Assembly (NCBI GenBank): GCA_026391255.1
Contig: JAPLDU010000106.1
Location: forward strand, 5,358 to 63,490
DNA from: Bacteroidia bacterium
GTDB lineage: Bacteria > Bacteroidota > Bacteroidia > Bacteroidales > JAPLDU01
Reading direction: 5' to 3'
DNA: 58,133 nt
Position 1 is the first letter of the stretch; each line of letters starts with the position of its first letter. Positions 15,401-47,072 of the stretch are shown piece after piece. The notes beneath the pieces were generated by a model. The model did no database searches, was not told the origin of the DNA, and saw nothing but the letters and a program-made list of their open reading frames with translations. Both the position numbers and the translations under genes were made by a program.

Positions 15401-18400
15401 TGGGGATGGTTGTACCGGCAGGTTCATTTAATATATGCGCTTACCTGATCTACCCTGCCGATCAATATGCTATGAATAACAGTTTTTGCATTTCGTCATT
15501 TGGTGTAGTAACCTTCACTATTCCTTATGTTGATAATTTTGACGGAACAAACTACTGGCTGGCGGGACCTGCCACATCAGGTTCACAATGGCAGTTAGGA
15601 ACACCGGCATACGGCACGACCAACAGCGCCTATTCAGCACCAAACTCATGGGATGTGAACCTTACTACTGCATATACCGACAACGCCAACTGTATGCTTT
15701 ATACTCCGTATTTCGATTTTACGGGCGTGAGCAATACCAAGATGGATTTCATGATAAATTATAATGCTGAAAATTCATATGACGGACTAAGGATTGCTTA
15801 TACAACCAATGGAACCTCCTGGGCTGTATTGGGTACATATAATGATCCGTTAGGAACAAACTGGTACAATGCAGCTTCAGTTGCTTCAAGCGGCAATCAC
15901 CCTGTATGGACAGGAAATTCCGGTGGCTGGGTTAAGGCTTCACACAGCCTTGCCCAATTCAATAATATGCCTCTTGTCCGGTTCAGGTTCATCTTTACTT
16001 CCGATGCATCAATGGAATATTCCGGCATATCAATTGATAATTTTTCTATTACCAGATATGACCTGGGATTGACTGCAATTAATTCACCGGTCAATGGGTG
16101 TGATATGACACTTCAGAATGTCACAATTACTATTCACAACTACGGGGATACCATATTCGGCGGAGTTCCAGTATCATACTGGCTTGCCGGTGGAAATACC
16201 ATTACTGATACCATAACAGCCACCATCCTGCCAAATGCAGATTTCACTTATACATTTGCTACCCAGGTTAATCTTACAAGCGTTAACCCGGCAACATTCA
16301 CCTTAAATGCTTCCGTAAATTACCCAGCCGACCTGATCCTGACCAATAACCAGATTCAGGCTACGATCAGCAATGGAATCACTCCTTCCGTTAATCCGTC
16401 GGCTGACAATGTGACCATCTGGTCAAGCGGTACAGCCACTTTGTCGGTAATTAATCCCAGCCCGTATTATACCTACTCATGGTATGATGCAGTCGGCGGA
16501 ACCGATCTTCACGACGGAACAAGTTTCACTACTCCCGCACTCTTCGATACAACCGTTTATTACCTTGTTGAATCATCAGGCGGCGCATGTCCAAGCAGTT
16601 TCGTTCCGGTTACTATATTTACCCAGTATGCGCCATACGATGCAATGGTCTGGAGTATCACATCCCCGGTTTCCGGTCTCAACCTTACATCATCAGAAAT
16701 TGTAACTGCCAATGTCTATAATAATGGATTGGATACGCTTTACTTGATACCGGTACATTATACCGTCAACGGGGGTACTGCGGTAAATGACATGATTCCG
16801 GGACCTTTGGCCCCTGGTCAGCACATCGTATTCACTTTTGCCGTTAATGCCGATTTATCTGTCCCCGGAAATTATCATATCTGTGTTTATACAACTTATC
16901 CCAACGACGGAGTTACCGCAAACGATAACCTGTGCATCTACGTTGCACACACTACCTGCAATCCCAGCTATACTTACAATTGTGTTGATGGCGACCAGCT
17001 TACTGCCTTCCAGTTGAGCAACCTTAGCCAGACAGGAATACCATGCAACGGCGGTTATATTGATTATTCCGGCGCCACCTGTATTAATATCACGCAGGAT
17101 TCTATGTATATTGTTTCAGGTATCACCGGTTACTCAGGCGAATATGTGACAATCTGGGTTGATTATAATAATAATTTGACATTTACCGCGGATGAGATTG
17201 TAGTCACAAACTGGGAAATTGCATCGGCAGGCCAAAGTGCGTCAAATATTTTCACCATCCCCGAATATTCGCTTGATTCAGTATATACTGCCGGTTCGCA
17301 CAGGATGAGAGTTGTTGTTAATTGGTTGAGCAGCCCTACTGATCCATGTGGCAGTTATTCATTCGGGCAAACGATGGATTATTGCGTGATTGTAGCGCCT
17401 AATTCTGCATTTACTGTTAATCTTACTGCCACCAACCTGAATTGCTGGGGAGCCAGTACCGGCGCTGTTGATCTTAGTATTGTCAATACTTCCGGCGTGT
17501 CTCCTTTCACATATTTATGGTCAAACGGCCAGACAACACAGGATCTTACAGGACTTGCGGCGGGTACATATTCGGTGACGGTTACCGATGCTGCGACAAA
17601 TACAAATACAGCCTCTGTTACTGTTACACAGCCTGGACAGCTATCAACCTCCTTATTCGGAACCGATGTTACCACACTTGGCGGTAATGATGGCACTGTA
17701 ACCCAGTTAACGATAGGAGGGATTTCACCTTATACCTATCTGTGGGCGCCAGGGGGTCAGACAACAGGAGACCTTACCGGATTGTTCGGAGGTCTTTACC
17801 GGGTGACTGTTACTGATGCACATAACTGTACCTTTATTGACAGTATTACGATCAATACTCCGAATCCGTGGAGCCCTGCGCCAACAATTACTACCATGAC
17901 CCATAACATTCATATTCCAGCCAACGCCCTCATTACACTTGACGGCAATGTGGTGCCTCCCGGAAGCTGGGTAGGCGTATTCTACCACCAGGGCAGCAAT
18001 TTAGTTTGCGGTGGAGCACATATCTGGAATAATATGGACATTGACCTGACGGCATATGGCAATACTGCCGTTAGCGGACCAGCGAATGGTTTTGCTTCAG
18101 GTGAAACATTCTCGTGGAAAGTCTGGGTTCCAAGTCCTGCCGGCGATCATCAGGGAACAGCCACATATATCCAACCGCCCATTTACCTGCAAACAAGCGC
18201 CTTCCTCCTGGGAGGACATAGCGGAATCTCTGCACTTGCTGCCATTACCATTCAGTACCAGACCATCAACTTACCTGCCGGATGGGGTATTTGGTCCACT
18301 TATATCATACCAAATGATGCAAATCTTAAACATGTTCTCTTATCTATTCAGCCAGTCCCATATGATAATGTTACTCTTGCAAATAATAAAGTGGTTATTG

Positions 18401-29451: not shown

Positions 29452-30828
29452 CTATTGTTTGACCACTGTTCTGGTGATAATCTGTTTGTTTCCGTTTATG
29501 ACCCTTAAAAGATAAATACCTGCAGGCCATGTTGACGAATTAACTGAATTGCTGACATCTGAAGTTTTGGCACTGTAGATCATTTGACCGGTTGAATTGA
29601 ATATCAGGATATCAGCTTTTGAAACACCGGGAAGATTCAGGCTAAACGAACCTGTGAACGGATTCGGATAAATACTTATGTCAGACGGTTTGACCAAATC
29701 AACTCCGAGGTGGCTGGTAATATTAATATAGGTTGAATAAGTGTCTGATGATTTGTTGCAATTGATCACAAGAACTACCATGTATGTTCCCCAACTGCCG
29801 AAAACATATGTAACAGGGAAGGTAACAGTTGTTCCATTGCCGGTAAATACCCAGGTCACAGTAACAACATTTCCCTGGACACTCAGGGCAGCAACATAGA
29901 AAGAATCAACCGTAAAATTCAGGCAGGAATCGATCGGGTTAGTCAGCAGGGTATCGATCGGAACGATCTGGGTAGGTTCCAGTATCTGGAATGTGTAACT
30001 ATAAGGAGGGCACAAAGAATCGTTCTGGGCAATAGATACTGTGTAAATTCCCGAAGTCAGACCGTAAATATCTTCCGTAGTGGCGCCGTTGCTCCAACTG
30101 AAAATATATGGTGTATAATAACCGGTAACTGTCAGGTCGATAAAACCGTCATTTCCACCGATAACAGTAACATCAGATATATTTGAATTTACATTCAGGA
30201 AGCAGTTATTCGGAACAGTATCGCCAACTGTCAGAAAATAGCACTGGGTATCGCCGCAACTGTCGTCGGTGGCAATGGTCAGGCAAACATCATATGTGCC
30301 GTTACCCGGGAATGTAAAGCTCAAATTTTGCTGATTGGAGGTCAGTAATGTATTTTGCAGGTAGTCATAAATTGTCCAGTTCCAGGAAGTAATGGTTGCT
30401 CCTGAAGCAGGATTACCAACCGTTGACAGATCAGTAAAAGAATAAGTATTCAGCAGACCATTATTCTGGTACATAAAATCTGCATTACAGGTCATAGGTG
30501 GATTATTCAGATAAACAGAATCACATACGGTACTTTGACAACCGTTACTTGTTGAAATGGTCAGACAAACCGTAGCCGAAGCTGAAGAGTTTAAAATCTG
30601 GAAAACCGGATTTGTAACAGTATCGGTGTAAATGGCACCTCCGCATGTCACTGTCCAGTTCCAGGCAGTTACATTGATCAATGAAGAATCAGTAACATAA
30701 GAATTGTCATAAAGAGACAGCAAGCTTTGGCCGTCATAGTTATAAGTAAAGAAAGCCTGGCACTGTGACTGTGAGAACACGGCCTGAACAGCCAGGATTA
30801 AAACTAAAGTTTGTATAATTTTTTTCAT
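29452..30828 (-). CDS. Secreted PKD/SprB protein with T9SS tail, paralogue 1
   Basis: A 458-residue protein. The ATG at 30828 is chosen over a TTG two codons earlier because the paralogue begins with the same MKKI start. A signal peptide (residues 1-20, cut after VFSQ) is followed by two PKD-like domains (each ending CLTIST..GC..T.C), one SprB repeat with GGNDGFIDLTVTG and TTEDIYGLTSGIYTV, and an unnamed about 90-residue domain starting near DTLLTNPIDSCLNFTVDSFY. The last about 75 residues are a T9SS type A tail (SIYPNPFTGSFSLNLPG ... WPAGIYLLRV). It is a tandem paralogue of the next gene upstream and shares its C-terminal third with the 2076-residue protein. Role unknown; probably a surface or matrix component. 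Confidence 0.9.
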   Translation of the reverse strand: MKKIIQTLVLILAVQAVFSQSQCQAFFTYNYDGQSLLSLYDNSYVTDSSLINVTAWNWTVTCGGAIYTDTVTNPVFQILNSSASATVCLTISTSNGCQSTVCDSVYLNNPPMTCNADFMYQNNGLLNTYSFTDLSTVGNPASGATITSWNWTIYDYLQNTLLTSNQQNLSFTFPGNGTYDVCLTIATDDSCGDTQCYFLTVGDTVPNNCFLNVNSNISDVTVIGGNDGFIDLTVTGYYTPYIFSWSNGATTEDIYGLTSGIYTVSIAQNDSLCPPYSYTFQILEPTQIVPIDTLLTNPIDSCLNFTVDSFYVAALSVQGNVVTVTWVFTGNGTTVTFPVTYVFGSWGTYMVVLVINCNKSSDTYSTYINITSHLGVDLVKPSDISIYPNPFTGSFSLNLPGVSKADILIFNSTGQMIYSAKTSDVSNSVNSSTWPAGIYLLRVINGNKQIITRTVVKQ

Positions 30829-30911
30829 AATCAATTATTTTATAGGTTACAAATATAATGTTTTTTGTTTATAGACTGTTGAAATTAATATTTGGTTGCT
30901 TGTGAAAAATA

Positions 30912-31079: not shown

Positions 31080-32453
31080 CTATTGTTTCACCACAATCCT
31101 GGTGACAAGCTGTTTGTTTCCGTTTGTTACCCTTACGAAGTACATACCTGCAGGCCAATGTGAAGCATTAACCTGATTTCTCATATTCGCTGTTCTGACA
31201 CTGTATATCAATTGACCGGTTGAATTGAATATCCTGATCTCAGCATTTGAAACATCCGGAATATTCAGGTTAAACGAACCCGTGAACGGGTCTGGATAAG
31301 TATTGATCTCAGCCAGGTCAGGGTTATCAATTCCAAGATGGCTGGTGATATTAATATATGTAGTATAGGTTTCAGATGACTTGCCACAAATGATCTGAAG
31401 AACTACCATGTATGGCCCATAATTACTGAAAACGTATGTAACAGGGAAGGTAACTGTCATGCCACTTCCCGTCAATATCCATATAACAGTTACAACACTG
31501 CCCTGAACACTAATTGAGGCAACAGAAAAAGAATCGACTGTAAAATTCAGGCAGCTATCGATTGGAATGGCCATCAATGTATCAATCGGCACATTCTGGA
31601 AGGGTTCCAGTATTTGGAATGTACAATTAATCGGAGGGCAGACGGAATCGTTTTGCCCAATCGTTACGGTATAATATCCGGAAGTAAGTCCGTAAATATC
31701 TTCTGTAATTTCTCCATTACTCCAATTGAAAATAAAAGGAGTATTGGCACCCATTACAGTCAGGTCAATAAAACCGTCATTTCCACCGATAACCGTAACA
31801 TTAGAAATGTTTGGAAACACATCCAGATTACACAGCATTGAATCATTTAGATTAATGCTATGGCACTGTGTATCAGTGCAACCGATGTCGGTATTTATCG
31901 TAAGGCATACATGATAATAGCCTATGCCTGGAAATGTAAAAGCAGGATTTTGAATGGTCGAGGTGAATAATGTATTCTGCAGGTTATCAGTAATGATCCA
32001 GCTCCATGAGGTAATACTTGCCCCTGATGCAGGGTTACCGGCAGAAGAATAGTCGGATAAAGTATAATTATATAAGATACCATTCGGCTGCCAGGAAAAT
32101 TCCGCATGACAGCTTATTACATACGGAATTATGTAAATAGATGTATCACATAAGGTACTAGTGCAACCATCGCTTGTCGAAATGGTCAGACAGGCTGTTA
32201 ACAGGCCTGCATAGTTGCCAACCTGGACAACAGGATTTGCAGTATTATAAGTATAACTTACACCTCCAAAATCTGCTGTCCAACTCCAGGCAGTAACATT
32301 GATCGTTGATGAATCCGTGTTATACGAAGCATCATTAAGGGACAAAAGGCTTACGCCGTTATAGTAATATGTAAAATATGCCTGACACTGTGCCTGTGAA
32401 AACACAGCCTGCGTAGCCAGGATAAAAACTAAAGTTTGTAGAATCTTTTTCAT
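31080..32453 (-). CDS. Secreted PKD/SprB protein with T9SS tail, paralogue 2
   Basis: A 457-residue protein with the same order as paralogue 1: signal peptide cut after VFSQ, two PKD-like domains, one SprB repeat (GGNDGFIDLTVMG, TTEDIYGL-type region here ITEDIYGLTSGYYTV), the unnamed domain (IPIDSCLNFTVDSFSV ... THLGID-like end SHLGID), and a T9SS tail (TYPDPFTGSFNLNIPD). The proline-asparagine turn of the tail reads PDPF rather than PNPF. The tail is nearly identical to that of the 2076-residue protein, also at DNA level. It is followed by a repeat and then paralogue 1, consistent with tandem duplication. Confidence 0.9.
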   Translation of the reverse strand: MKKILQTLVFILATQAVFSQAQCQAYFTYYYNGVSLLSLNDASYNTDSSTINVTAWSWTADFGGVSYTYNTANPVVQVGNYAGLLTACLTISTSDGCTSTLCDTSIYIIPYVISCHAEFSWQPNGILYNYTLSDYSSAGNPASGASITSWSWIITDNLQNTLFTSTIQNPAFTFPGIGYYHVCLTINTDIGCTDTQCHSINLNDSMLCNLDVFPNISNVTVIGGNDGFIDLTVMGANTPFIFNWSNGEITEDIYGLTSGYYTVTIGQNDSVCPPINCTFQILEPFQNVPIDTLMAIPIDSCLNFTVDSFSVASISVQGSVVTVIWILTGSGMTVTFPVTYVFSNYGPYMVVLQIICGKSSETYTTYINITSHLGIDNPDLAEINTYPDPFTGSFNLNIPDVSNAEIRIFNSTGQLIYSVRTANMRNQVNASHWPAGMYFVRVTNGNKQLVTRIVVKQ

Positions 32454-32882: not shown

Positions 32883-34325
32883 TTAATTGGGTGGATAAGT
32901 AAGCGTACAGGTAGATGCTACCTTGATCTGATATCCTTTACCCGGCTGCATATTGACTATGTTGTTAACCCCATATTGTGGCCAATAAACATTTCCATCT
33001 CCGTCTTTCATGATAGATAATGCAGAAACTATCTGGCTCATCATGGTAACAACAAGTGCAGGGGATTGACGAAGATAACCCAATATACTCCAACCGGAAG
33101 GGATATTTATCGGATTGGTCTCTGGTACAATTGCATGGCCGGTTATTGTTAGAAACTGTGCTGTTAGCATTCTTACCTGGTATCCTTTTCCTATCTGCAT
33201 ATCTCCGATATTATTTACATTATAGGCTGGCCAGTATGGATTTCCCAAGCCATCCTTGACAATGGAAACCTGAGAAACAATCTGGGCAAAAATATAATTA
33301 ACACCAGGCAATGAAGGATTAATGAATGTTGAAAAAATACTCCATCCTTGTGGTATATTAATTTGTTGCTGCTCTGCGGTGTCAACAGTATATTCTTCAA
33401 TTACTGTGCAATTATGATTATCGGTTACTGTCACATTGTATGTACCCGGTAACAGACCAGTAACCGATCCGGAAGTTTCACCGGTTGACCATAACATGGT
33501 ATATGGAGTTGTTCCTCCTGAAATGTCAAGAAAAGCAGACCCATTATCACATGAAGTACATCCGGAATTTTGTACTAAAACATTAACTATTAGCTCATCG
33601 GGATGAGTTACATTATAAGTTCCCGTTATTGTATCCGGCAGCATTGAATAATAACCAGTCAAAGAATTCAGTACACCTATGGTATTTTCTATGAAGTATC
33701 CCTGATTGGTTATGGCTGGAGGATTCAATGGTGCATAGGAAGCAGTCATATTTACTACTATTCCGTTTGAGCCATTGGTTATATGCCAGACTTTCCAATT
33801 AATAGGTTCATTGTTAATAAATCCATCTTTAAAAGGCGTATCGGGATAATCGCGAAATGCAGGAACTGCAGTATTGTATCCACCACACCCAAATCCGCCT
33901 GTCGAAGTGGTATAAAATACTCCGATATAATCCCCTGTACTTGCAGGTAAACCATTAATTAATACAGTTCCTGCCTGTATAAGGAAATTGTCACACCAAT
34001 AAGCTCCTGAATTGAAAAAACTCCAGTTAAAAGCATTGGGTACAGGATTGTACGAATCGGTAATTGTAACCGTATATGAACCTGGTGCAAGATCAGTAAG
34101 GTCCTGTATCGTGGCAGAATTGCTCCATAAATAAGTGTATGGTGTCACTCCACCTGTGACCGTCAGGTCAATTGATCCATCGGTTGAAAGATAGCAACTT
34201 GAGTTTGTAATTGCTGTGGAGATATTTAACTGTGTATATCCTGAATTTATTAACAACAAGAACATTGCCAGTAAAAGGGAAATTCTGAAAATTATATGTT
34301 TCATAAGGTGATCAATTTTTTTCAC
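32883..34325 (-). CDS. Secreted SprB / module alpha / module beta protein
   Basis: A 480-residue protein with a signal peptide (ISLLLAMFLLLINSGYTQ). Order: one SprB repeat (residues about 33-95), module alpha (about 98-225; GDYIGVFY, FGCGGYN, DGFINNEPINWKVW), a second SprB repeat (GCTSCDNGSAFLDISGG), and module beta (about 322-480; GWSIFSTFI, VKDGLGNPYWPAYN, GKGYQVRM, GWSILGYLR, MKDGDGNVYWPQYG, GKGYQIK). It ends LTYPPN with no T9SS tail, so module beta is the extreme C-terminus. The gene follows the 1045-residue gene by 47 bases and is probably in the same transcript. No enzymatic motif is seen. Confidence 0.88.
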   Translation of the reverse strand: MKKIDHLMKHIIFRISLLLAMFLLLINSGYTQLNISTAITNSSCYLSTDGSIDLTVTGGVTPYTYLWSNSATIQDLTDLAPGSYTVTITDSYNPVPNAFNWSFFNSGAYWCDNFLIQAGTVLINGLPASTGDYIGVFYTTSTGGFGCGGYNTAVPAFRDYPDTPFKDGFINNEPINWKVWHITNGSNGIVVNMTASYAPLNPPAITNQGYFIENTIGVLNSLTGYYSMLPDTITGTYNVTHPDELIVNVLVQNSGCTSCDNGSAFLDISGGTTPYTMLWSTGETSGSVTGLLPGTYNVTVTDNHNCTVIEEYTVDTAEQQQINIPQGWSIFSTFINPSLPGVNYIFAQIVSQVSIVKDGLGNPYWPAYNVNNIGDMQIGKGYQVRMLTAQFLTITGHAIVPETNPINIPSGWSILGYLRQSPALVVTMMSQIVSALSIMKDGDGNVYWPQYGVNNIVNMQPGKGYQIKVASTCTLTYPPN

Positions 34326-34372: not shown

Positions 34373-37300
34373 TTAATTCGGTGGATAAGTCAGCGTACAG
34401 GCCGATGTTACCTTGATCTGGTAACCCTGGCCGGGTATCATATTGACGATATTATCAACTCCGAATTGTGGCCAGTAAACATGACCTTCTCCATTTTTCA
34501 CAATAATAATATTCGATACGATAGGACTCATCAGGGTAATAACTAATGCAGGAGAGTTACGCAAATAACCCAGAATACTCCATCCTGAAGGAATATTTAC
34601 CGGTGATGTCTCAGGAATTACTGCTATGCCCGTTACCGTTAACGTTTGTGCTGAAAGCATTTTTAACTGGTATCCTTTACCAGTTTGCATATTCCCTATA
34701 TTATTTAGTCCAAAGGACGGCCAGTAAACTGACCCGTTGCCATCCTTGACAATAATCAGTTGTGAAACAACCTGGGCAAAGACATCACTAATGTTTGGCA
34801 TAGTTGGATTTATATAGGTCGAAATGATACTCCAGCCCGTTGGAAGATTTATTTGTTGTTGTTCAGTATATACAAGACTTAACAATGAACTTATACCATT
34901 AATCGCAAAATTCCCCTGATCGGGAAATGCCATATTATAAGTTGGAATACATATATAATCCGTATCCGTGAAGGGATCAAAAACTATCCAGGTAAATGCT
35001 TCCCCAATACTGAATCCATCTTTTACCACAGTAGAAAGATCATCTGCCCATGCAGCAATTACATGTGCAGATCCATTTGCAGAATATTCAAAGTATCCAC
35101 CACAATAATACTGACCGGCAGATTCATAGAATACTCCAATATAGTTATAATTTTGAATCGTATTCCCATTAATGGTAGTATTTACGGGTATCAGTATTGT
35201 ATGGTTATACCCTGTATTTGTATATGACCAACCGGGTGCCGGCATACTGTCAATACTCATTGAACCGGTTTCAGAACATCCTATATAATCAAATACGGTA
35301 ACATGGTAGGTTCCGCCTGTTAACTGCGGAATATTTTGTGTTGTGCAATTATTTGACCAGATATAATAATAGGGGCTGGTACCACCGGTAACAGTTAAAT
35401 TAAAAGAACATGGTATTGTGTCCCCCGCACAATAAATTGAATCAAAATTTAATTGTAATGCAGACTCTTCTGTAATTTTGATAATTGACATTACCGAAGT
35501 ACCGAGCGAATCAGTGACTGTTATATAATAAGTGCCGTCCGACAAACTATCAATATCTTCCGTGGTGGCGCCGTTGCTCCATAAATAGGAGAAAGGGCTG
35601 ATACCACCATTTACTGCTATATCAATATTTCCCGTTGTACCATTGCAGAAAGTCAATGGGCTTAATATTCCAATTGATAAAGAGGAACTGAGGATATTCG
35701 TCAACGGCCTGACCCAAATGCCGGCATTCAAGGTTGAAGCATAAATACTTGAATTATTTATTTCTAATGAGCTGATATTGGATCCTGTCATTCCTGTACT
35801 GACTGAAGTCCAGTTCTGACCATTGTCTGATGATAAATAAACCCCGTTACTTTGCAATCCGGCAAATATATATGAACCATACACTTCAAAACAGGTCAGG
35901 GATTGATAAGAATTTGGAGCGGGGAGTCCTGAATTATATGGAATCCAGCTTTGCCCTTCATTCCATGAATGATAAAAGAAATTATTTTGTGATCCGGCAA
36001 ATACTGAAGATCCGAGTTTTCCAAAGGATTTAACATAGTATCCGGAGCTTAATCCGGTATTTACTAATGTCCAGGATGATCCGTAATTAGTTGATTTATA
36101 AACTCCATTTCCACTGACAAATAAATCTGAATTGACCATTTCCATCGCTTTAATCCCAAGTTGGTTTAACCCGATGTTACAGGCCGACCAGGTTTGTCCG
36201 CTGTCAGACGACCTGAAAATCCCATGTGAATTATCCGAAGCAAAAATCCATGACCCCGATACGACCAATCCTGTAACATTAGTCATATTTGGTATGCCTT
36301 CATTTAAACAGGTCCAGTTTAAGGCGTTATTTACACTTTTATATATCTTTCCTCCGGCTGTACTGACATATATGTCGCTCCCTGCGAGTCTGATTTTGGA
36401 AATATTATAATTTGTAATCCCGTTGTTTCGTACTTCCCAGGTTTGTCCTGTATCAGGTGAATAATAGAAACCAAATGGGGTACCGGCATAAATATCCTGG
36501 TTATTTACGCTTATAGTATTAAAAATTTTAAACTTTATACCCGTATTTGACGCTATCCAGTTCTGAGCGGTGTCTGTTGATTTATAAACACCGTGATAAT
36601 ATGTACCTGCGTATGAGTTTGTCCCGTCAAATAACAAGGTATGTACATTGGGATAGTCCAGCCCGTTATTCATCTGGGTCCAGCTTAGGCCATCATCTGA
36701 AGAAACAAATATTCCATGTTTCATGGTTCCCACATAAATACTGCTGTCATGATAAGATAATGCAGACGCGCTATCCAGATTTGTTCCATTATTAATGGAG
36801 TACCAGTTCTGGCCAAGATCCGGTGACTTGTATACACCGGAATCAGTCCCTGCATACAGATCATTACTGTGTGCCATCAGAGAATAGATATGGTAGTTGG
36901 TAAGTCCTGTATTAATGGATATCCAGGTTTGTCCGTTATCAGATGATTTATATATTCCACTCGAGCCATGGCCTGCAACGAGGATAGTGTCAATAATGGT
37001 TATGCAGGTGATATCCATGTTGCCCAGACCATTATTAACAGCAGTCCAGTTCAGGCCATTATTGACGGATTTATATATTCCCATACCGCTGGAACTGAGA
37101 AAAAGACAGGAACCAGACTGAACAATTGCGGTAATGGGAGTAACGTTACCATTTGGAACATTATTTATTACTGTCCAGTTTTGTCCGTTATCAGTTGAAA
37201 TATACAAATTACATGCAGGCCATGCACTATTCGTTGCCTGAATGGATGCTCCTGCAAAAATATTATTTCCGCTGATGTACAGACAATAAACAGAAGTACC

Positions 37301-37510
37301 CGTGAAAGTACTGACGGATGTCCAGGTTTGGCCGCTGTCCGCCGAAACATATAACCCGCTTCCGTTTGTCCCGGCATAAATAATACTGCCCTGTGACGCC
37401 ATGCAAAAAATTTCACCACCCTCCGGAAGGGCTGATTGCTGCCATTGGGCATTAGCAATAAGAATGGTACAAAGAGAAATAAAAACAGTTAAGAATATTT
37501 GTGGTTTCAT
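34373..37510 (-). CDS. Secreted Asp-box beta-propeller protein with SprB, module alpha and module beta
   Basis: A 1045-residue protein with a signal peptide ending at about residue 21 (IANAQ). Residues about 22-620 hold about 13 Asp-box/BNR repeats (SADSGQTW, STDNGQNW, SSDNGQTW, SPDLGQNW and so on), as in sortilin/VPS10, neuraminidase and photosystem II assembly-factor propellers; no sialidase arginine triad was recognised. Two SprB repeats follow (about 625-780), then module alpha (about 790-905; YNYIGVFY, YYCGGYF, AAWADDLSTVVKDGF, FTWIVFD), then module beta to the end (GWSIISTYI, VKDGNGSVYWPSFG, GKGYQLKM, VKNGEGHVYWPQFG). It ends LTYPPN without a T9SS tail. Probably first in a two-gene unit with the 480-residue gene. 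Confidence 0.9.
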   Translation of the reverse strand: MKPQIFLTVFISLCTILIANAQWQQSALPEGGEIFCMASQGSIIYAGTNGSGLYVSADSGQTWTSVSTFTGTSVYCLYISGNNIFAGASIQATNSAWPACNLYISTDNGQNWTVINNVPNGNVTPITAIVQSGSCLFLSSSGMGIYKSVNNGLNWTAVNNGLGNMDITCITIIDTILVAGHGSSGIYKSSDNGQTWISINTGLTNYHIYSLMAHSNDLYAGTDSGVYKSPDLGQNWYSINNGTNLDSASALSYHDSSIYVGTMKHGIFVSSDDGLSWTQMNNGLDYPNVHTLLFDGTNSYAGTYYHGVYKSTDTAQNWIASNTGIKFKIFNTISVNNQDIYAGTPFGFYYSPDTGQTWEVRNNGITNYNISKIRLAGSDIYVSTAGGKIYKSVNNALNWTCLNEGIPNMTNVTGLVVSGSWIFASDNSHGIFRSSDSGQTWSACNIGLNQLGIKAMEMVNSDLFVSGNGVYKSTNYGSSWTLVNTGLSSGYYVKSFGKLGSSVFAGSQNNFFYHSWNEGQSWIPYNSGLPAPNSYQSLTCFEVYGSYIFAGLQSNGVYLSSDNGQNWTSVSTGMTGSNISSLEINNSSIYASTLNAGIWVRPLTNILSSSLSIGILSPLTFCNGTTGNIDIAVNGGISPFSYLWSNGATTEDIDSLSDGTYYITVTDSLGTSVMSIIKITEESALQLNFDSIYCAGDTIPCSFNLTVTGGTSPYYYIWSNNCTTQNIPQLTGGTYHVTVFDYIGCSETGSMSIDSMPAPGWSYTNTGYNHTILIPVNTTINGNTIQNYNYIGVFYESAGQYYCGGYFEYSANGSAHVIAAWADDLSTVVKDGFSIGEAFTWIVFDPFTDTDYICIPTYNMAFPDQGNFAINGISSLLSLVYTEQQQINLPTGWSIISTYINPTMPNISDVFAQVVSQLIIVKDGNGSVYWPSFGLNNIGNMQTGKGYQLKMLSAQTLTVTGIAVIPETSPVNIPSGWSILGYLRNSPALVITLMSPIVSNIIIVKNGEGHVYWPQFGVDNIVNMIPGQGYQIKVTSACTLTYPPN

Positions 37511-37564
37511 AAAAGTAATTTTAATAAAAAGCGAGATATTCTTATTAATCCAGAATTGAATCTA

Positions 37565-37801
37565 CTGAGAAAGTCCGCAGGATTTAAATCTTAATAACCC
37601 CGGGCGAAACCCGGGGTCAAATGAATCCTCCCCTATGTTTTCCGGCTTCGCATGTTTGATTTTGTTTTGAAACAACCATCATACAGCGAAGCCGGCGCAA
37701 CAAAAATAAATATTATTCAACCCTTTCAGGGTTACCGTTAAACAACCTTCATACTACCCTGCACTCCGTACAGGGCTATTCATATTCAATCCCTTCGGGA
37801 T
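37565..37801. repeat. Family B three-hairpin element, copy 4
   Basis: AAGTCCGCAGGATTT, CCCCGGGCGAAACCCGGGG, then CCGGCTTCGC ... GCGAAGCCGG. It is followed by extra mini-palindromes: ACCCTTTCAGGGT, CCCTGCACTCCGTACAGGG and AATCCCTTCGGGATT. It separates the 2076- and 1045-residue genes. Confidence 0.8.
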
Positions 37802-37821
37802 TTATATACTGGCTTATGGTT

Positions 37822-40800
37822 CTATTGTTTCACCACAATCCTGGTAACAATCTGTTTGTTTCCGTTTGTTACCCTAACGAAGTACATACCTGCAGGCCAT
37901 TGTGAAGCATTCACCTGATTACTCATGTTCGCCGATCTGACGCTGTATATCATTTGACCCGTTGAATTGAATATCCTGATCTCAGCGTTTGAAACATCCG
38001 GAATATTCAGTTTAAACGAACCTGTGAACGGGTTTGGATAAATGAGAAGATCAGCCTGATTGCCGGCATCAACTCCGAGGTGACTGGCAATGTTAATATA
38101 GGTCATATAAGTGTCGGACGATTTATTACAATTGATCACAAGAACTACCAGGTAGGTTCCCCAATCGCCGAAAACATAAGTTACCGGGAAAGTCGCAGTC
38201 ATCGAATTACCTGTGAGTACCCAGGTAACGGTGACAAGATTGCCCTGGACGCTCAGTCCTTCAACATAGAAAGAATCGACCGGAAAATTCAGGCAGGTAT
38301 CAATCGGGTTTGTAAACAGGGTATCGAGAGGAATATTCTGGTAAGGTTCCAGAATATGAAATGTATAATTAACCGGTTGGCACAGGGAATCAGTTTGTCC
38401 GATCGTCACGGTATATAAGCCGGAAGAAAGTCCGTAAATATCTTCCGTGGTTGAGCCATTGCTCCAGCTGAAATAAAACGGCGGATTACCCCCTGTCACT
38501 GTCAGGTCGATAAAACCATCATCAGCACCGATAACCGTGACACCGGAAATAACGGAAGTCACATTAATATTGCAGCCATTCGAAAATAATGTATCAGCAA
38601 CACTTGAACAGCCGTTACTGTCGGTAATGGTGACAGAATATGTTCCAAATGCTGAAACTATAATATGCTGAGTTGTCTCTCCGGTTGACCAGTTAAATGT
38701 GACAGGCGGAATTCCGCCGGTGTAGGAGGCTACAAGAGTATCCGAACCGTTAACATTTATCCCTGCCTGCAACTGGGCGGGTTGTGTTACATGAATGATC
38801 TGGACATTCTCAGCGCCTGCAGCATCACTGACGGTCACATGATACATACCCGCTGCCAGGCCTGCGATATGATCTGTTGTTGCACCTGTGGACCACAAAT
38901 ATGTATAGGGTGACATTCCGCCGTTGACTGTCAGTTGAATCTGTCCGTCACTTAAACCGTAACATGTGACATTAACTGATGTATAAGAAATCTGCAAAAC
39001 TGAAACAACAGAAGCAGAATCAATGATTGTACATGATTGGGAATCGGTCACGGTAAGGTAATAAATACCATCATTAGTTACAGTGATATTACCGTCTGTT
39101 GCTCCATTCGACCAGAGATAAGTGTAAGGAGGTGTGCCACCGGTAGTGGTTGAGTTTAGATCATAATAACCAGTTACAGTAATTCCTGAATTCATTGCAG
39201 GTGGCTGGCTGATCACAAAACCTTCAATGACGGCTGCTCCAATAAAGCCGCTGACAGTCACATCATATGTTCCAGCTGCCAATCCTGTTACACTTTCGGT
39301 TGTGGCCCCGGTTGACCAAAAATATGAATAGGGTGTCTGGTCACCGGTAACCGTAAGCTGAATCTGCCCGTTACCGGAACCATTACATGTGGCATTGGTT
39401 ACCGTTCCGGTGATTTGTAATGGCCCAAAAACAATTGCAGTTACAATTATTGAACATAAATGAGCATCGGTCACCGTTAAGTAATAAGTATCCGGATTAG
39501 TTACAGTTATATTACTTGTTGTAGCCCCGGTTGACCAGAGATAAGTATAAGGAGGTGTTCCACCTGAAGTGTTCGGATTCAGGTTATAAGAACTTGTTAT
39601 GATATTTACTGAATTCAATGCAGAGGGTTGGGTAATCACATAACCCTCAATAGCAGGTGTCCCTGAAATGTCAGTCACAGTAACATGGTAGGCTCCCGCT
39701 GCTAATCCTGTGACAACGGCAGTTGTAGCGCCGGACGACCAAAGATATGAATAGGGTGTCTGTCCACCTGTCACAGTCAGTGAAACAGATCCGTCGTTCC
39801 CATTATGACATGACACGTTGGTACTTATATAATTCACCGTAAGTGGTGGAATTAGGTTACTCAGGCTGGTAAGGCCGCTCATCCCATTTGTGACATAAAA
39901 TCCCTGGTTGGGCATAGTTATTATATACATAGGATTTGCATTATATTCTGAATTGGTTGTAATATCCCAGATTTTCCATTGGAAAGCTTCATTGGATGCA
40001 AACCCGTCTTTGGCAGGAGTCATAGGATCGTCGCCCCAAGCTGTTAATGCGCAAGTAATACCTGACCAGGTTACATATCCACCACAGGCAATCCCGCCGG
40101 CAGGCAGGCTGTAAAATACTCCAATGTAACTTCCGTTAGCTAATGGAATTCCATTAATATACACCGTATTAGAGGGAATAATAATACTATGGTTTACACC
40201 GGTATTGACATATGTCCAGGAAATTGTCCCGGTCACTAGTTCGGACGCAGTTATGATACATGAGTGTGAATCGGTGACTGTAAGTGAATAAACACCTGTG
40301 TTTGCAACAGTGATATTATCTGTTGTGGCGCCGGTTGACCAGAGGTAATCATATGGAGAAGTTCCTCCAATGGGAGTTGAGTTTATTAAATATGAACCTG
40401 AATTGGTGGTATAGGTAATATTTACCATCAAATATGCGGGACAGGTAACATGTGGCTGGTCAATAATTACCTGGCCATCGGCAGAAGTCACAGTTACATG
40501 ATATGTCCCTGAAGGAATCCCAGTGATTGCAGATGTGGTAGCGCTGTTTGACCAATGATATACATAAGGTGCGAGTCCTCCGCTTACAGTTAAGTGAATC
40601 TGGCCATCGCTGGAACCGTTACAGGAAGCATTTGTGATGGTATGGCTGACTTGTAACAGTGAATAAACAACCTTCGAAGTAATGGCAGTACATGAATTGT
40701 TATCTGTCACTGTAAGTGAATAAGTTCCGGAAACGGTTGTGGTAATAGATTCTGTTGTGGCTCCGTTTGACCAGTTGAATGAATATGGACTTATACCGCC

Positions 40801-43800
40801 GTTAATTGTAGTAGTGAGAGTATAAATACCGGCAGCATAAGAACTGGTTATCGTCACTGACATTGAAATTACTGTAGCCTGGTTTGTGATTGTCTGGTTA
40901 TCTGCAGAAGTCACAGTAAACTGGTATGTCCCTGCAGAAAGTCCTGTTATAACTGATATAGTGGCATTGTTTGACCAGAGATATGTATAAGGAGTAATAC
41001 CACCGGTAACTGTAAGCTGGATTTGTCCGTCACCGGAGCCACTACACGATGTATTAGTTACAGTTTGATTGACTTGTAATGGTTGTATGGTGGTAACGGT
41101 GTCAATAATCGTACAAGTGTGGGCATCAGTCACTGTAAGGTAATAAATATCCAGATTGGTCACGGTAATATTTCCGGTTGTTGCCCCGTTCGACCAAAGA
41201 TAAGTATAAGGCTGTGTACCACCTGTGGTAGTCGAGTTCAGATTATAAGAACCCGTGACAGAAATTCCTGAATTCAGCGAACCCGGCTGATGGATCAAAA
41301 AACCCTCAAAATAAGGTATCCCCGAAATATCACTCACTGTAACAAGGTAGTTTCCGGATGCTAAACCTGTTGCAACTGCAGTGGTTTGACCATTCGACCA
41401 AAGATACGAATAGGGTGTCTGGCCGCCACTGACGGTTAATGAGACAGAACCGTCATTCCCGTTATAACACGTAACGTCGCTAATATAATAATTCACCGTA
41501 AATAATGGATTCTGGTTACTCAGGCTGGTCAGACCACTCAATCCGTTTATGGCAAAAAATCCCTGATTGGGCTGGTTTGTCATGTAAGAAGGATAGGCAT
41601 CATATTCGGTACTTGTTGAAATATCCCATATCTTCCACTGAAAGGCTTCATTGGTCGAAAACCCATCTTTGGCAGGAGTCATCGGATCGTCGCCCCAGGC
41701 TGCTAAAGCGTTGGCATTTCCTGTCCAGACGATATATCCGCCACAGGCAATTCCACCAGCCGGCAAACTGTAAAAAACCCCGATATAGCTTCCGATTGAT
41801 AATGGATTTCCATTTACATAAACTGTATTAGCAGGTATAAAAATTTCGTGGGCGCCAGTATAGATATTACACGTCCAGGGACTTGGCTGGGTGGCGAATA
41901 TTGTATCTTTCTTAAAACATGAATGAGAATCAGTGACGGTGAGTTTATAAGTACCTGGCGAACTCACAGTAATATCTTCGGCTGTGGCTCCATTCGACCA
42001 GAGATAAAAATAAGGAGATGTACCTCCGGTTGCTGTGGAATTCAGAAAATATGAATTGCTGACTGCTGTATTTGTAATGCTCAACTGCAATGCCGAAGGT
42101 GAAGTAATACTGGCCTGGTCTGTTATTGTCTGGTTATCTGCAGAATGCACAGTTACATTATATGTCCCCGCTGCAAGCCCTGTGATTGCTGATGTTGTGG
42201 CATTATTCGACCAATGATATGTATAAGGCGTCAGTCCTCCGCTTACAGTTAACTGAACCTGGCCATCGTTGGAGCCATTACAGGAGATGCTAATTATTGT
42301 ATGACTGACTTGTAAAGTTGCATAAACCGTCTTTGAAGCAGTAACCATACATGAGTTAATATCAGTCACAGTAAGATAATAAGTTCCCGGAACGGTTGTA
42401 GTGATACCAACTGTTGTAGCTCCATTCGACCAGTTATATGAATAAGGACTTGTACCTCCGGTTATGGTAGAATTGAAAGTATATGTACCGGAAGTATATG
42501 AACTGGTTACCGAAACAGAAAGTGTAGTTGCCGTGGCATAATCTGTAATAGTCTGGTTATCTGCAGATGTCACAGTTACATGGTATGTCCCTGCCGTAAG
42601 CCCCGTTATTGTTGATGTTGTGGCGTTGTTAGACCAATGGTAGATATAAGGCGTCAATCCTCCGGTAACATTTAGCTGAATAATACCTGTTCCGGTCCCG
42701 GGACAATCATACGATATGATATGACTGACCTGTAACGAAAGATAAGCGTAAGCAGATAAAGTATTTGTACATGAATTGGAATCAGTCACTGTCAGGGAAT
42801 ATGTTCCCGGAACCGTCGTGGTAATATCTTCTGTGGTGGCTCCGTTTGACCAGATAAATGAATATGGAGTTGTACCACCGGTAATGGTAGCATTGAGAGT
42901 ATATGTACCGGCAGCATACGAACTGGTCACCGAAACTGTCAATGAAGTAACTGTTGCTACGTCAGATATTGTCTGACCATCTGTTGAAGTCACAGTTACA
43001 TGATATGTCCCTGCCGTAAGCCCCGTTATTGTTGATGTTGTGGCATTGTTCGACCATAAATATGTATATGGAGTAATACCTCCTGTAACGGTCAACTGTA
43101 TCTGACCGGTAGCTGAACCACTGCATGTATTCACAACAGTGTGGCTGACCTGTATTGGCGGGGCGCTTACCGTAAAGGATGCCGAAGCTGCACAGCCATT
43201 TGAATTGGTCACCGTAAGTGAATAAGTCCCCGGATCGGTGACTGTAATACTGTCGGTCACTGCCCCGTTTGACCAGGCATACGTACTGGAAGTGTTACCT
43301 CCCATTGCCCAAAGGTGGTGTGTATTACCGGTTGTTGTATCTGATATGCTAATATTCATCGTAGAATTCAAAGCATTTACATAAGCTGCCTGAACCTGAG
43401 CGGTTCCGCTGAAATCGGTGATAGTAACAATATAAATCCCTGCCTGCAGGTTCTGGTTATTGGATGATGTGCCCGAATTGGACCACAGGTAGGCATAGGG
43501 ACTTTGTCCGCCTGTTGCCGACAACTGAACAGCGCCGTCAGTTGAAGTGTAACAACTGGCGGGGGTTACAACGGATGTTACATTAAATGACAGTGATCCG
43601 ACATGCAGGGAGCTGAGTCCGCTCATACCATTTGCAATAAAATTCCCGGCATTGGCAAATGTGCCTGTACCGGCAGGAAAATACTCAGGAATTGCATCAT
43701 AAACAGAATCCGTAACCGAATCCCAGATTTTCCACTGAATTAATTCATTACTGGCAAAACCCTCCTTGACAGTTGTCTGTGAATCATCCTGCCAGGCCGA

Positions 43801-44052
43801 CATTACCCTTGCATTCCCGTTCCAGGCCACATTCCCGCCACAAGTCGGCACCCCGGCATTGCTGAAAAAAACACCGATATAACTGCCTGAAGAAAGTGGC
43901 ATGCCATTGATAGTCACCGAACCGGCAGGAATATAGATGATATGAGAGAACCCCGTTATTACAAAACTGAAGCCGGCAGGTTGAGCCGATGCAGAATAAC
44001 ATTGAAATGCCGCAAAAATCAAAGCTGTGAATTTATATATATACTTTTTCAT
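37822..44052 (-). CDS. Giant SprB-repeat adhesin with three alpha modules and T9SS tail
   Basis: A 2076-residue protein with a signal peptide (LIFAAFQCYSASAQ). Module alpha copies lie at about 26-150, 720-847 and 1272-1397 (SYIGVFYSLPAGGIACGGY, AAWGDDPMTPAKDGF, FQWKIWD). Between and after them are about 21 SprB-type repeats in blocks of 8, 6 and 7. They alternate two forms: A with an N-terminal Cys (C.GS.DGQIQLTVTGG) and B with the Cys at the end (GTYSLTVTDSNSC). The last about 245 residues match the two PKD/SprB paralogues: one SprB repeat, the unnamed DTCLNFPVDSFYVEG domain, and a T9SS tail (YPNPFTGSFKLNIPDVSN). SprB repeats are known from the Flavobacterium gliding adhesin; an adhesive surface role is inferred. 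The gene follows the stand-alone beta gene by 41 bases. Confidence 0.92.
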   Translation of the reverse strand: MKKYIYKFTALIFAAFQCYSASAQPAGFSFVITGFSHIIYIPAGSVTINGMPLSSGSYIGVFFSNAGVPTCGGNVAWNGNARVMSAWQDDSQTTVKEGFASNELIQWKIWDSVTDSVYDAIPEYFPAGTGTFANAGNFIANGMSGLSSLHVGSLSFNVTSVVTPASCYTSTDGAVQLSATGGQSPYAYLWSNSGTSSNNQNLQAGIYIVTITDFSGTAQVQAAYVNALNSTMNISISDTTTGNTHHLWAMGGNTSSTYAWSNGAVTDSITVTDPGTYSLTVTNSNGCAASASFTVSAPPIQVSHTVVNTCSGSATGQIQLTVTGGITPYTYLWSNNATTSTITGLTAGTYHVTVTSTDGQTISDVATVTSLTVSVTSSYAAGTYTLNATITGGTTPYSFIWSNGATTEDITTTVPGTYSLTVTDSNSCTNTLSAYAYLSLQVSHIISYDCPGTGTGIIQLNVTGGLTPYIYHWSNNATTSTITGLTAGTYHVTVTSADNQTITDYATATTLSVSVTSSYTSGTYTFNSTITGGTSPYSYNWSNGATTVGITTTVPGTYYLTVTDINSCMVTASKTVYATLQVSHTIISISCNGSNDGQVQLTVSGGLTPYTYHWSNNATTSAITGLAAGTYNVTVHSADNQTITDQASITSPSALQLSITNTAVSNSYFLNSTATGGTSPYFYLWSNGATAEDITVSSPGTYKLTVTDSHSCFKKDTIFATQPSPWTCNIYTGAHEIFIPANTVYVNGNPLSIGSYIGVFYSLPAGGIACGGYIVWTGNANALAAWGDDPMTPAKDGFSTNEAFQWKIWDISTSTEYDAYPSYMTNQPNQGFFAINGLSGLTSLSNQNPLFTVNYYISDVTCYNGNDGSVSLTVSGGQTPYSYLWSNGQTTAVATGLASGNYLVTVSDISGIPYFEGFLIHQPGSLNSGISVTGSYNLNSTTTGGTQPYTYLWSNGATTGNITVTNLDIYYLTVTDAHTCTIIDTVTTIQPLQVNQTVTNTSCSGSGDGQIQLTVTGGITPYTYLWSNNATISVITGLSAGTYQFTVTSADNQTITNQATVISMSVTITSSYAAGIYTLTTTINGGISPYSFNWSNGATTESITTTVSGTYSLTVTDNNSCTAITSKVVYSLLQVSHTITNASCNGSSDGQIHLTVSGGLAPYVYHWSNSATTSAITGIPSGTYHVTVTSADGQVIIDQPHVTCPAYLMVNITYTTNSGSYLINSTPIGGTSPYDYLWSTGATTDNITVANTGVYSLTVTDSHSCIITASELVTGTISWTYVNTGVNHSIIIPSNTVYINGIPLANGSYIGVFYSLPAGGIACGGYVTWSGITCALTAWGDDPMTPAKDGFASNEAFQWKIWDITTNSEYNANPMYIITMPNQGFYVTNGMSGLTSLSNLIPPLTVNYISTNVSCHNGNDGSVSLTVTGGQTPYSYLWSSGATTAVVTGLAAGAYHVTVTDISGTPAIEGYVITQPSALNSVNIITSSYNLNPNTSGGTPPYTYLWSTGATTSNITVTNPDTYYLTVTDAHLCSIIVTAIVFGPLQITGTVTNATCNGSGNGQIQLTVTGDQTPYSYFWSTGATTESVTGLAAGTYDVTVSGFIGAAVIEGFVISQPPAMNSGITVTGYYDLNSTTTGGTPPYTYLWSNGATDGNITVTNDGIYYLTVTDSQSCTIIDSASVVSVLQISYTSVNVTCYGLSDGQIQLTVNGGMSPYTYLWSTGATTDHIAGLAAGMYHVTVSDAAGAENVQIIHVTQPAQLQAGINVNGSDTLVASYTGGIPPVTFNWSTGETTQHIIVSAFGTYSVTITDSNGCSSVADTLFSNGCNINVTSVISGVTVIGADDGFIDLTVTGGNPPFYFSWSNGSTTEDIYGLSSGLYTVTIGQTDSLCQPVNYTFHILEPYQNIPLDTLFTNPIDTCLNFPVDSFYVEGLSVQGNLVTVTWVLTGNSMTATFPVTYVFGDWGTYLVVLVINCNKSSDTYMTYINIASHLGVDAGNQADLLIYPNPFTGSFKLNIPDVSNAEIRIFNSTGQMIYSVRSANMSNQVNASQWPAGMYFVRVTNGNKQIVTRIVVKQ

Positions 44053-44093: not shown

Positions 44094-44681
44094 TTAGTTG
44101 GCAGGATAAGTTAATGTGAATGTCTGAATGGCTTTAATTGAATAGCCCTGGCCCGGGTCAATGTTGGTGTTTAACTGTGTACTCCCTGAATATTCACCAA
44201 TAGTACACAAACTAAACTGAGGCCAAAATACATGACCCGCCGTATCCCTTATGATAGCAACATTTGTCATATTTAACTGTGAATTCAATGATAGAATTGA
44301 GATCGGCGTTTGCCGCAAATATCCAAACATACTCCATCCGGCCGGAATGGTAATGGGAGTGAGTTGCGGAACAACTGCAGTTCCTGTAACAGTCAATGTT
44401 GCCGCAGCATGCATTTTTACAAAATAACCCTTTCCGATGGTCATGTTTCCGATGTCATTGTACGAAACCGCAGGCCAGCATATGCTTCCATGATCATCTT
44501 TTATGATATCCAATGAGGCGATGATAGGGAAAAATACCGCCTGGACCGAAGGATTTACGGGTACCAGGTAGGTTGACATAAAACTCCAACCATTTACAAG
44601 TGTGATATTCTGCGTCTGTGTCTGTGAAAACACAACCTGGGTCACCAGGATTAAAATTAAGATTTGAATATTTTTTTTCAT
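44094..44681 (-). CDS. Small secreted protein consisting of module beta only
   Basis: A 195-residue protein: signal peptide (residues 1-20, cut after VFSQ) plus one complete module beta. First half: GWSFMSTYLVP, IIKDDHGSICWP, GKGYFVKM, TLTVTGTAVVP. Second half: GWSMFGYLRQTP, IIRDTAGHVFWPQFSLC, GQGYSIK, ending LTYPAN. The second half has the LCTIGEYSGSTQLNTN insertion seen in both halves of the giant protein's beta module (LCTIGEYTGSTQNNTN), so these two are close relatives. It appears to be first in an operon with the 2076-residue adhesin. With no other domain, it is the simplest protein in which to study the module. Confidence 0.88.
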   Translation of the reverse strand: MKKNIQILILILVTQVVFSQTQTQNITLVNGWSFMSTYLVPVNPSVQAVFFPIIASLDIIKDDHGSICWPAVSYNDIGNMTIGKGYFVKMHAAATLTVTGTAVVPQLTPITIPAGWSMFGYLRQTPISILSLNSQLNMTNVAIIRDTAGHVFWPQFSLCTIGEYSGSTQLNTNIDPGQGYSIKAIQTFTLTYPAN

Positions 44682-44976: not shown

Positions 44977-46491
44977 TTATTTATATGGTTGCCTTGACCA
45001 GAAATATAACTGGTATTTTATACCGAGGCTGATCCCCCAGGCATTGTACCTGAGCGAAGGCAGTCCTTCGTTTGATCTCAGGCCATTGATGCTGCCCCGC
45101 CAGAAAGGCGATAACTCAACCGACCAGTGTTCGGTCAGGCTCCGGTCGATACTGGCTGAAATGAAATATGAATACTGAATTTCCCTGGTCGAATACATTT
45201 CATTGAAATGAACAAGTCCGGTCTCCGATATTTTATCATAGGTATATCCCTGGCTTCCCGAAATGATCCCGAATAAAACTCCTCCTTTTACACTGAATTC
45301 GGTATTCCCTTCAGAATACTTGTATCCGGCTGCCACAGGAATTTCCACGATGCTGATGTTCGATTTCCATGAACGGTGAATGATGGTGTCATATTCGGTG
45401 GATGCCACCGGAATATAAACATTGACCAAGCTGGTATCGTAATGTGTCACAAGCACCGAATTAACCAGGTGCAACACGGAATCTTCAACATAGGTATTAT
45501 GCCATTCGCTGTGGCTGGTGATCACCTGCTGCTGGCCCGCCAGTTGCTGATGGATAACTATCTGCGGATTGTACAGCAGCCTGTTCCCGTTTTCCTTGGT
45601 CTGAAAATAACTGTACTGCAAACCTGATTCAATGAAAAACCTGCTGATGTGATAATCAATGCCGGCTGATAATGAGCCTGAAGGGAACCCCGGCTTTGAA
45701 GCAAGTACTCCCTGTCCGTCGCTTAAATTTGCAAATGCCTGTGAAAAGCTGAAATGAACACCGAAAAGCGGATTTACTGTCATATTTACCGGAGGTCTCA
45801 GGCATGATACTATGGCCTGATTATTCCTGTTATCATTTTGTTGGGGTAATAGAAGAAGTTTTATTGCTGAAATTCTTTCCGGTAATAAATTCTCTTTATT
45901 CGAAGATGAAAACATTTGTTCAGTACTTTTAACTTCCTGAATCATTGCAATATCACCGGGAATTGTCGGATCAATCACCTGATCTGCGGCTACCGGAGTT
46001 GTTTCTGATAAAGCAACAGCATTTTCCCGTGGAAATTCTTCCAGTTCTTTCCCGTCGTTTATTACTTTTACAACTGATGAATTAACAGCTTCCGGTCCAA
46101 CCGGATTCACAGTTCTGGCAATGGATGCCGGGGATTGCGACGATACCTGGTTGTCATCGTCCGGTAATGTTTTTATACTGATGGTGGTTTCATCCTGACT
46201 TGACGCATTTACATTGGCAGGTTTGACAACTTCTTTAACTGAAACTGCGGAAACGGCTGTTTTGTTTTTCTGTTCAGTGCCCGGCAATATAAAGAAAACC
46301 GAGGAGCTCACTACTATGATTGAAACCATCAACGGTACGATCAACTTCAGGCTGCCGAAAATCCTGAAGTGCCAGAAATTATACCAAACCATCCGTTTGC
46401 TGATATCTTCAGCTAAATGGGCCGGGGGCGTTACAACGAAATTGTCGAGTGCATCCCTCACCAGGCGGTCTACTTCTTTCATATTTTTCAT
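44977..46491 (-). CDS. Putative anti-sigma-like membrane protein with outer-membrane-barrel-like C-terminus
   Basis: A 504-residue protein. Residues 1-45 are a charged cytoplasmic-looking segment (EVDRLVRDALDNF, LAEDISKRM). Residues about 47-70 are one hydrophobic helix (LKLIVPLMVSIIVVSSSVFFIL). Residues about 75-245 are a low-complexity Ser/Val/Asn-rich linker. Residues about 255-504 look like a PorT/OMP_b-brl beta-barrel-like domain: alternating strands such as FFIESGLQYSYFQTK, IVEIPVAAGYKYS, FSVKGGVLFGI, and a terminal strand GISLGIKYQLYFW. The start codon overlaps the sigma-factor stop (ATGA), implying coupling and a partner role. A trans-envelope anti-sigma factor is the best guess; no RseA or FecR family signature is clear. 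Confidence 0.8.
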   Translation of the reverse strand: MKNMKEVDRLVRDALDNFVVTPPAHLAEDISKRMVWYNFWHFRIFGSLKLIVPLMVSIIVVSSSVFFILPGTEQKNKTAVSAVSVKEVVKPANVNASSQDETTISIKTLPDDDNQVSSQSPASIARTVNPVGPEAVNSSVVKVINDGKELEEFPRENAVALSETTPVAADQVIDPTIPGDIAMIQEVKSTEQMFSSSNKENLLPERISAIKLLLLPQQNDNRNNQAIVSCLRPPVNMTVNPLFGVHFSFSQAFANLSDGQGVLASKPGFPSGSLSAGIDYHISRFFIESGLQYSYFQTKENGNRLLYNPQIVIHQQLAGQQQVITSHSEWHNTYVEDSVLHLVNSVLVTHYDTSLVNVYIPVASTEYDTIIHRSWKSNISIVEIPVAAGYKYSEGNTEFSVKGGVLFGIISGSQGYTYDKISETGLVHFNEMYSTREIQYSYFISASIDRSLTEHWSVELSPFWRGSINGLRSNEGLPSLRYNAWGISLGIKYQLYFWSRQPYK

Positions 46492-47072
46492 CTTATTATC
46501 TGTTTTGTTTCCTCAACGGAACTCACTTTCATTTTTATTTTGCTGATGATTGCCTTACGCGCTTTCATTAGTTGTGTTTTAGACGTATTCACTGAAATAT
46601 CGAGTATCCGGGCAATCTCATTATGCTTGTACTCCTCAAAGGCAAAAAGATTGAAAACGGTACGGTAACCCTCGGGCAATTCACTGATGACCGTTAAAAT
46701 CTCTTCCGGTGCAATATCATCAAATAGGTCCTCAATGCTGTCTTCCTCAGCCTCTGCTGTTAGGAGATCATTATTTTCATTTATCTCACAGGAAAATCTG
46801 TACTTTTTATTATCCCGGAGGTAGTTCAGAACAGTATTTACCATTATTCGGCGAATCCAGGGATACAAAGCAGTATTCTTTTCCCGGGAAAATGTGTCAA
46901 ATTTTTTAAATATGCGGATAAACCCTTCCTGAAGAACATCCTCAGCATCCGGACGGTTGCCGGCATAACGCAGGCATACCACGAACAACCGTCCCGAATA
47001 TACCCGGTACAGTTCGTCCTGTGCCTTTTTCCGGCCATTCAGACAACCTTCAATTATTTCCTGATCAGACAA
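46488..47072 (-). CDS. ECF sigma-70 family RNA polymerase sigma factor
   Basis: A 194-residue protein with region 2 at about 20-90 (YAGNRPDAEDVLQEGFIRIF, WIRRIMVNTVLNYLR) and region 4 at about 130-185 (LPEGYRTVFNLFAFEEYKHN, EIARILDISVNTSKTQLMKA). It directs RNA polymerase to a stress or envelope regulon. No in-frame ATG exists between the upstream stop and SDQEIIEGCLNG; TTG at 47072 places the start exactly where homologues normally begin. The coupled downstream gene is probably its regulator. Proximity to the surface-protein cluster invites the idea that it controls T9SS cargo, as SigP does in Porphyromonas, but orthology is not shown. Confidence 0.92.
   Translation of the reverse strand: MSDQEIIEGCLNGRKKAQDELYRVYSGRLFVVCLRYAGNRPDAEDVLQEGFIRIFKKFDTFSREKNTALYPWIRRIMVNTVLNYLRDNKKYRFSCEINENNDLLTAEAEEDSIEDLFDDIAPEEILTVISELPEGYRTVFNLFAFEEYKHNEIARILDISVNTSKTQLMKARKAIISKIKMKVSSVEETKQIIR

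Follow-up and report, generated by a model that had tools for sequence, protein, structure and literature searches.

The DNA analysed here, a stretch of 58,133 nucleotides (the window), encodes seven true copies of one small all-beta domain family, which we refer to as alpha. The best reading is that alpha is an unnamed family of extracellular beta-sandwich domains of about 118 residues and a module of surface proteins exported by the type IX secretion system (T9SS). The computations define the family, a shared predicted fold, two subtypes and their positions, an expansion in one lineage and a pair of coupled acidic residues. From these we infer a surface location, roles in adhesion and spacing, and possibly cation binding. 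As a whole, the explanation that internal copies serve in display or adhesion, that the copy preceding the sorting tail (alpha') acts as a spacer and that an acidic loop may hold a cation appears reasonably probable. The profile of this domain merits a name; many large surface proteins of Bacteroidota contain it in stretches to which standard annotation assigns nothing.

Three copies lie in a 2076-aa protein (37822-44052, minus strand), which contains about 18-20 SprB repeats and a sorting tail. Copy A1 occupies host residues about 22-155 (43600-43977 encodes residues ~26-151), A2 about 722-850 (41515-41889; modelled as 41503-41895) and A3 about 1276-1403 (39856-40224), all on the minus strand. 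A 1045-aa protein (34373-37510, minus strand) composed of a BNR/sortilin-like propeller, SprB repeats, alpha and a terminal pair of repeats of a second module, b, includes A4 at residues 757-885 (34868-35236). In a 480-aa protein with SprB, alpha, SprB and a terminal b pair (32883-34325, minus strand), A5 spans residues 94-227 (33654-34031). BLAST and HMM searches support all seven copies. The remaining two are encoded on the plus strand in a 3364-aa protein (9439-19533) with BNR_assoc_N, beta-helix, GEVED, Ig_7 and SprB regions followed by alpha, two b repeats, alpha' and the tail: A6 at residues 2805-2936 (17857-18243) and A7 at 3157-3285 (18913-19260). With an iterated profile, the window yields these seven copies and no others, and their locations agree with those given in a preliminary description of the sequence. 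The range given there, 34790-43975, holds only four of them; A5, A6 and A7 fall outside it.

In pairwise BLAST, A1 matches the other six copies significantly (5e-38 to 2.5e-9, the latter for the diverged A7), and the best match between window copies reaches 2e-61. An HMM built from the seven copies gives a best E-value of 4.7e-58 in the organism's own 4.08 Mb genome. Thus, the seven-copy pattern is far beyond chance. Composition alone can align beta-rich secreted proteins rich in T, S, G and N, and the stretches could in principle be convergent low-complexity look-alikes that form no family; the BLAST and HMM results, together with one confident fold, refute this reading, which has practically no chance of being correct. 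The order of motifs described earlier as invariant does recur, although the word slightly overstates the case: only I18, G37-V38-F39, G50 and G76 are identical in all seven window copies, and a single glycine is invariant across a 101-copy alignment.

No established family in the libraries searched matched alpha, as the preliminary description had also supposed. The four host proteins have no Pfam or NCBIfam match inside the alpha stretches. Searches of 101 diverse copies against both databases returned scattered single chance matches, the best in Pfam being PF03785 in one copy (E 0.0098), and a PHROGs search and an alpha profile search of PDB sequences were empty or at chance level. We found no account of the domain in the published literature that was searched. 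Three sets were used: the 101-copy diverse alignment, a 144-copy set for column statistics and hhalign, and the iterated profile with 160 copies. Comparison by hhalign rejected homology to the SprB repeat (PF13573; probability 1.2%), to the b module and to the sorting tail. Alpha was not filed under CarboxypepD_reg, Peptidase_C25_C or SprB, as profile tests gave no credible match to any of the three.

AlphaFold2 modelling of A2 with 101 related copies predicts eight strands and no helix (mean pLDDT 95.7, pTM 0.89). A second model, covering the C-terminal 566 residues of the 3364-aa protein with a mean pLDDT of 87.2, gives A6 and A7 the strand order of A2 with similar spacing, which argues that the copies share a fold. 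The preliminary description would have been contradicted by copies that differ in fold or by a credible match to a known domain; neither was found. A Foldseek search of the PDB with the A2 model listed no match below E 0.001, and among the matches listed, mostly antibody V domains and transthyretin, TM values were at most about 0.38, with none reaching 0.5; the closest viral models had a TM of 0.49. These values suggest that alpha has an all-beta topology to which no solved structure is closely related. As small beta-sandwiches often give low TM values, we do not claim a new fold. Alpha could instead be a divergent member of the transthyretin-like/CarboxypepD_reg group of beta-sandwiches, given weak Foldseek matches to transthyretin (TM about 0.31-0.37, E-values of 0.16 or higher, probabilities of at most 0.82) and the order NG.P..G..I..F...CG, which by eye we take to resemble that of the group. 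We consider this quite unlikely, because, when 144 alpha copies were compared by hhalign with 23 CarboxypepD_reg domains of the same genome, only 20 columns aligned (probability 0.67%) and homology was rejected, and PF13620 matched none of 101 members.

The acidic DD..T..DGF stretch forms a predicted loop in the A2 model, between the strand ending at W67-G68 and that starting at Q86. Its complete strict form occurs in 44 of 144 copies. An acid at position 70 (D or E) is found in 81/81 copies with Asp62 versus 23/63 without it (p about 1e-19, profile columns), and when only full-length loops are counted in 81/81 versus 10/24 (p 2e-11). On the tree, Asp62 and the acid at 70 change on the same branch and in the same direction 15 times and never in opposite directions, compared with 2-9 for control columns; the two also form the second-ranked column pair by corrected mutual information. 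Copies with an NNG-type loop are missing both acids, and A6 has likewise lost them (GNTAVSGPANG). K81 is not the partner of the loop acids in a salt bridge, since K/R81 is retained in 55 of the 63 copies without Asp62. The coupled acids would fit a bound cation, but they would also fit a turn held by hydrogen bonds or a loop that is exchanged as one unit. Thus, the cation site proposed for this stretch is plausible, judging from sequence covariation, for about half of the copies, but it cannot define the domain, because 44% of copies lack Asp62. Where present, the paired-acid loop (DD..T..DG), possibly with a cation bound, may pin one end of the sandwich.

The family comprises two subtypes, which the preliminary description did not distinguish: internal alpha has a conserved lone cysteine in the C-G-G motif, and pre-tail alpha' mostly lacks it. 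Cys44 is present in 100 of 107 internal copies versus 11 of 37 pre-tail copies, which usually have V or L at this position; A7 is one of the copies without the cysteine. Pre-tail copies group on the tree (9 changes for 37 rows), and hhalign relates the subtypes with a probability of 100% (E 2.6e-40). Among the 81 copies of the own genome, 21 are alpha' directly before a sorting tail, with a linker of 6-11 residues in 20 of these; SprB precedes 30 copies and follows 29, and a b repeat precedes 23. A cassette of alpha, two b repeats, alpha' and sorting tail, likewise absent from the preliminary description, is found in the 3364-aa protein and many further proteins of the own genome, and also in distant genera, in genomes of other classes. 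Tandem alpha-alpha arrangements exist as well. This defined pre-tail cassette with its fixed-length linker makes it testable whether a stem domain before the sorting tail controls export and anchoring by the T9SS.

Several further features of these modules were observed. In 89 of 144 copies, the cysteine at profile position 44 is the domain's sole cysteine; extracellular modules do not usually have a single conserved cysteine. A second cysteine, close to the N-terminus, is present in stand-alone versions of alpha. The top coupled column pair is H10/Y31, with NHT..GDY mostly in internal and NMT..GDE mostly in pre-tail copies. Module b, also unnamed, consists of repeats of ~80 residues (GWS...S.YI...VKD..G.VYWP...GxGYQ.K...TL.YP.N) that are nearly always paired. 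In the window it lies between A6 and A7 (18253-18873, plus strand) and at 34376-34852, 32886-33377 and 44094-44681, and it recurs at many other loci of the genome. A b pair often terminates proteins in which no sorting tail is recognised, and one 195-aa protein without a Pfam match is just an N-terminal signal-like stretch followed by a b pair. The cassette of the 3364-aa protein (17833-19530) is 83% identical to that of another protein, at positions 5848-7545 of locus L080 on contig C68; other cassettes share 22-43%.

With the profile from the seven window copies, 81 matches were found in the own genome of 4.08 Mb, spread over about 50 proteins. The iterated profile over fetched loci converged at 160 copies, 81 from this genome and 79 from others. 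The own copies cluster on the tree (10 changes versus 47 in shuffles), which points to a largely lineage-specific expansion; the alpha tree rests on few columns and is poorly supported, and its starred branches gave too few pairs for tests of independent pairs. In a sample of the phylum, alpha occurs in 39 of 396 genomes, namely the own genome and 38 outside its class, and in none of the other genomes of the same class in that sample. Among relatives of the same order it occurs in 4 of 40, one of which has at least 48 copies. Per-genome counts in these sweeps are lower bounds, the best 10-14 candidates having been scored. A scan of a species-genome collection matched only two close relatives, and as it used exact degenerate patterns it says little about distant phyla. 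No alpha match was obtained in viral contigs, phages or plasmids. Other genomes encode minimal proteins of a signal peptide (recognised by eye) and alpha (145-152 aa), proteins of a signal peptide, alpha and a tail (262-323 aa), and an apparent lipoprotein with alpha (165 aa). Given the minimal proteins, alpha presumably folds and functions alone.

The sorting domain (PF18962/TIGR04183) is present on the 2076-aa protein (37831-38043, minus strand; TIGR04183 3.8e-19) and on the 3364-aa protein (19297-19518, plus strand; TIGR04183 8.4e-10, PF18962 5.2e-6); none was recognised on several host proteins that end in a b pair, among them the 1045-aa and 480-aa proteins, and for these the route of export is putative. 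A crude N-terminal pattern for signal peptides matched 26 of 50 host frames, many frames being truncated. In the 396-genome sample, T9SS sorting tails occur in 39/39 alpha-positive genomes versus 270/357 others, although the links of alpha to the T9SS are partly confounded with phylogeny. By the position and company of the domain, the host proteins would be exported surface proteins of adhesin type, carried to the cell surface by the T9SS. Sorting-tail matches in the own genome number at least 150, and single frames containing alpha and SprB reach 8407 aa; judged by sequence matches, its set of T9SS cargo would be very large for 4.1 Mb.

Internal copies probably serve in adhesion or display. 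With their C-G-G strand they would be strung between SprB repeats like beads, or follow a signal peptide on their own, and most likely they provide long surface proteins with folded heads for display or adhesion. A more tentative possibility is that alpha binds a carbohydrate or another ligand, like a carbohydrate-binding module, with the C-G-G, W.DD and DGF surfaces as the site. Whole proteins of a signal peptide and a single alpha (145-205 aa) are not explained by a mere spacer, and the aromatic and basic residues W50, W60, K81 and W83 are conserved, but these residues may be structural, and Pfam and NCBIfam searches matched no carbohydrate-binding family. The alternation with SprB repeats (30 preceded, 29 followed) and the tandem alpha-alpha arrangement could also be taken to indicate an inert spacer or stalk bead that merely lengthens surface proteins. 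This is rather unlikely: secreted proteins and lipoproteins with alpha as a single domain speak against a role as spacer alone, the motif residues are conserved across distant classes, and a protein usually carries one or few alpha domains, unlike true stalk repeats. Display or adhesion by internal copies remains our preferred reading, with alpha', 6-11 residues before the sorting domain, most likely acting as a spacer or insulator that would keep the tail accessible. The most far-reaching combination, a topology absent from solved structures in a cation-pinned T9SS adhesive domain that was amplified to 81 copies in one Bacteroidota lineage, with the pre-tail form as a general folding or insulating stem for T9SS sorting, is unlikely to hold jointly.

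Directly upstream of the alpha gene cluster in the window, an ECF sigma factor gene overlaps a gene for an unassigned 504-aa protein, a possible anti-sigma factor with a membrane part (44977-47072, minus strand). A similar pair lies upstream of another alpha cluster (L077 13133-15436, minus strand, contig C66). Elsewhere in the window, two genes next to each other encode PKD-like proteins of 457 and 460 aa with sorting tails (29452-30834 and 31080-32453, minus strand). These are closely similar to each other and are a recent duplication; towards the C-terminus they also resemble the end of the 2076-aa protein.

Compared with known systems, alpha shares with transthyretin-like/CarboxypepD_reg domains (PF13620) an all-beta extracellular nature and a weak fold resemblance, but has no profile similarity and no Pfam match to them, and a TM of only about 0.33. 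The GhpA grappling-hook fragments of Aureispira (PDB 9g8b, 9flx, 9flv), matched by the cassette model, likewise form a chain of beta-domains in a giant surface protein; a TM of 0.09-0.15 reflects generic bead-string similarity, and the GhpA sequence has no alpha profile match. SprB repeats (PF13573) alternate with alpha in its giant T9SS host proteins; unlike alpha they are short, and they have no profile similarity to it. A parallel in position is the arrangement of RgpB, in whose structure an Ig-like domain precedes the sorting tail, joined by a disordered 9-residue linker; a spacer or insulator role has been suggested for this domain, and A-LPS attachment depends on linker length (PMC4804311). 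The IgSF domain of RgpB (PF03785, Peptidase_C25_C) and alpha' are both beta-sandwiches directly before the sorting domain with a short linker (9 versus 6-11 residues), a position occupied by alpha' only and not by internal alpha. In contrast to the RgpB domain, alpha' is longer, is marked by a motif of its own and has a sister form at internal positions, and the PF03785 profile matches only 1 of 101 alpha members (E 0.0098). Although membership by sequence fails, the same position and similar linker length lead us to think that alpha' works like the RgpB domain, and by this analogy the pre-tail copy is probably a spacer.
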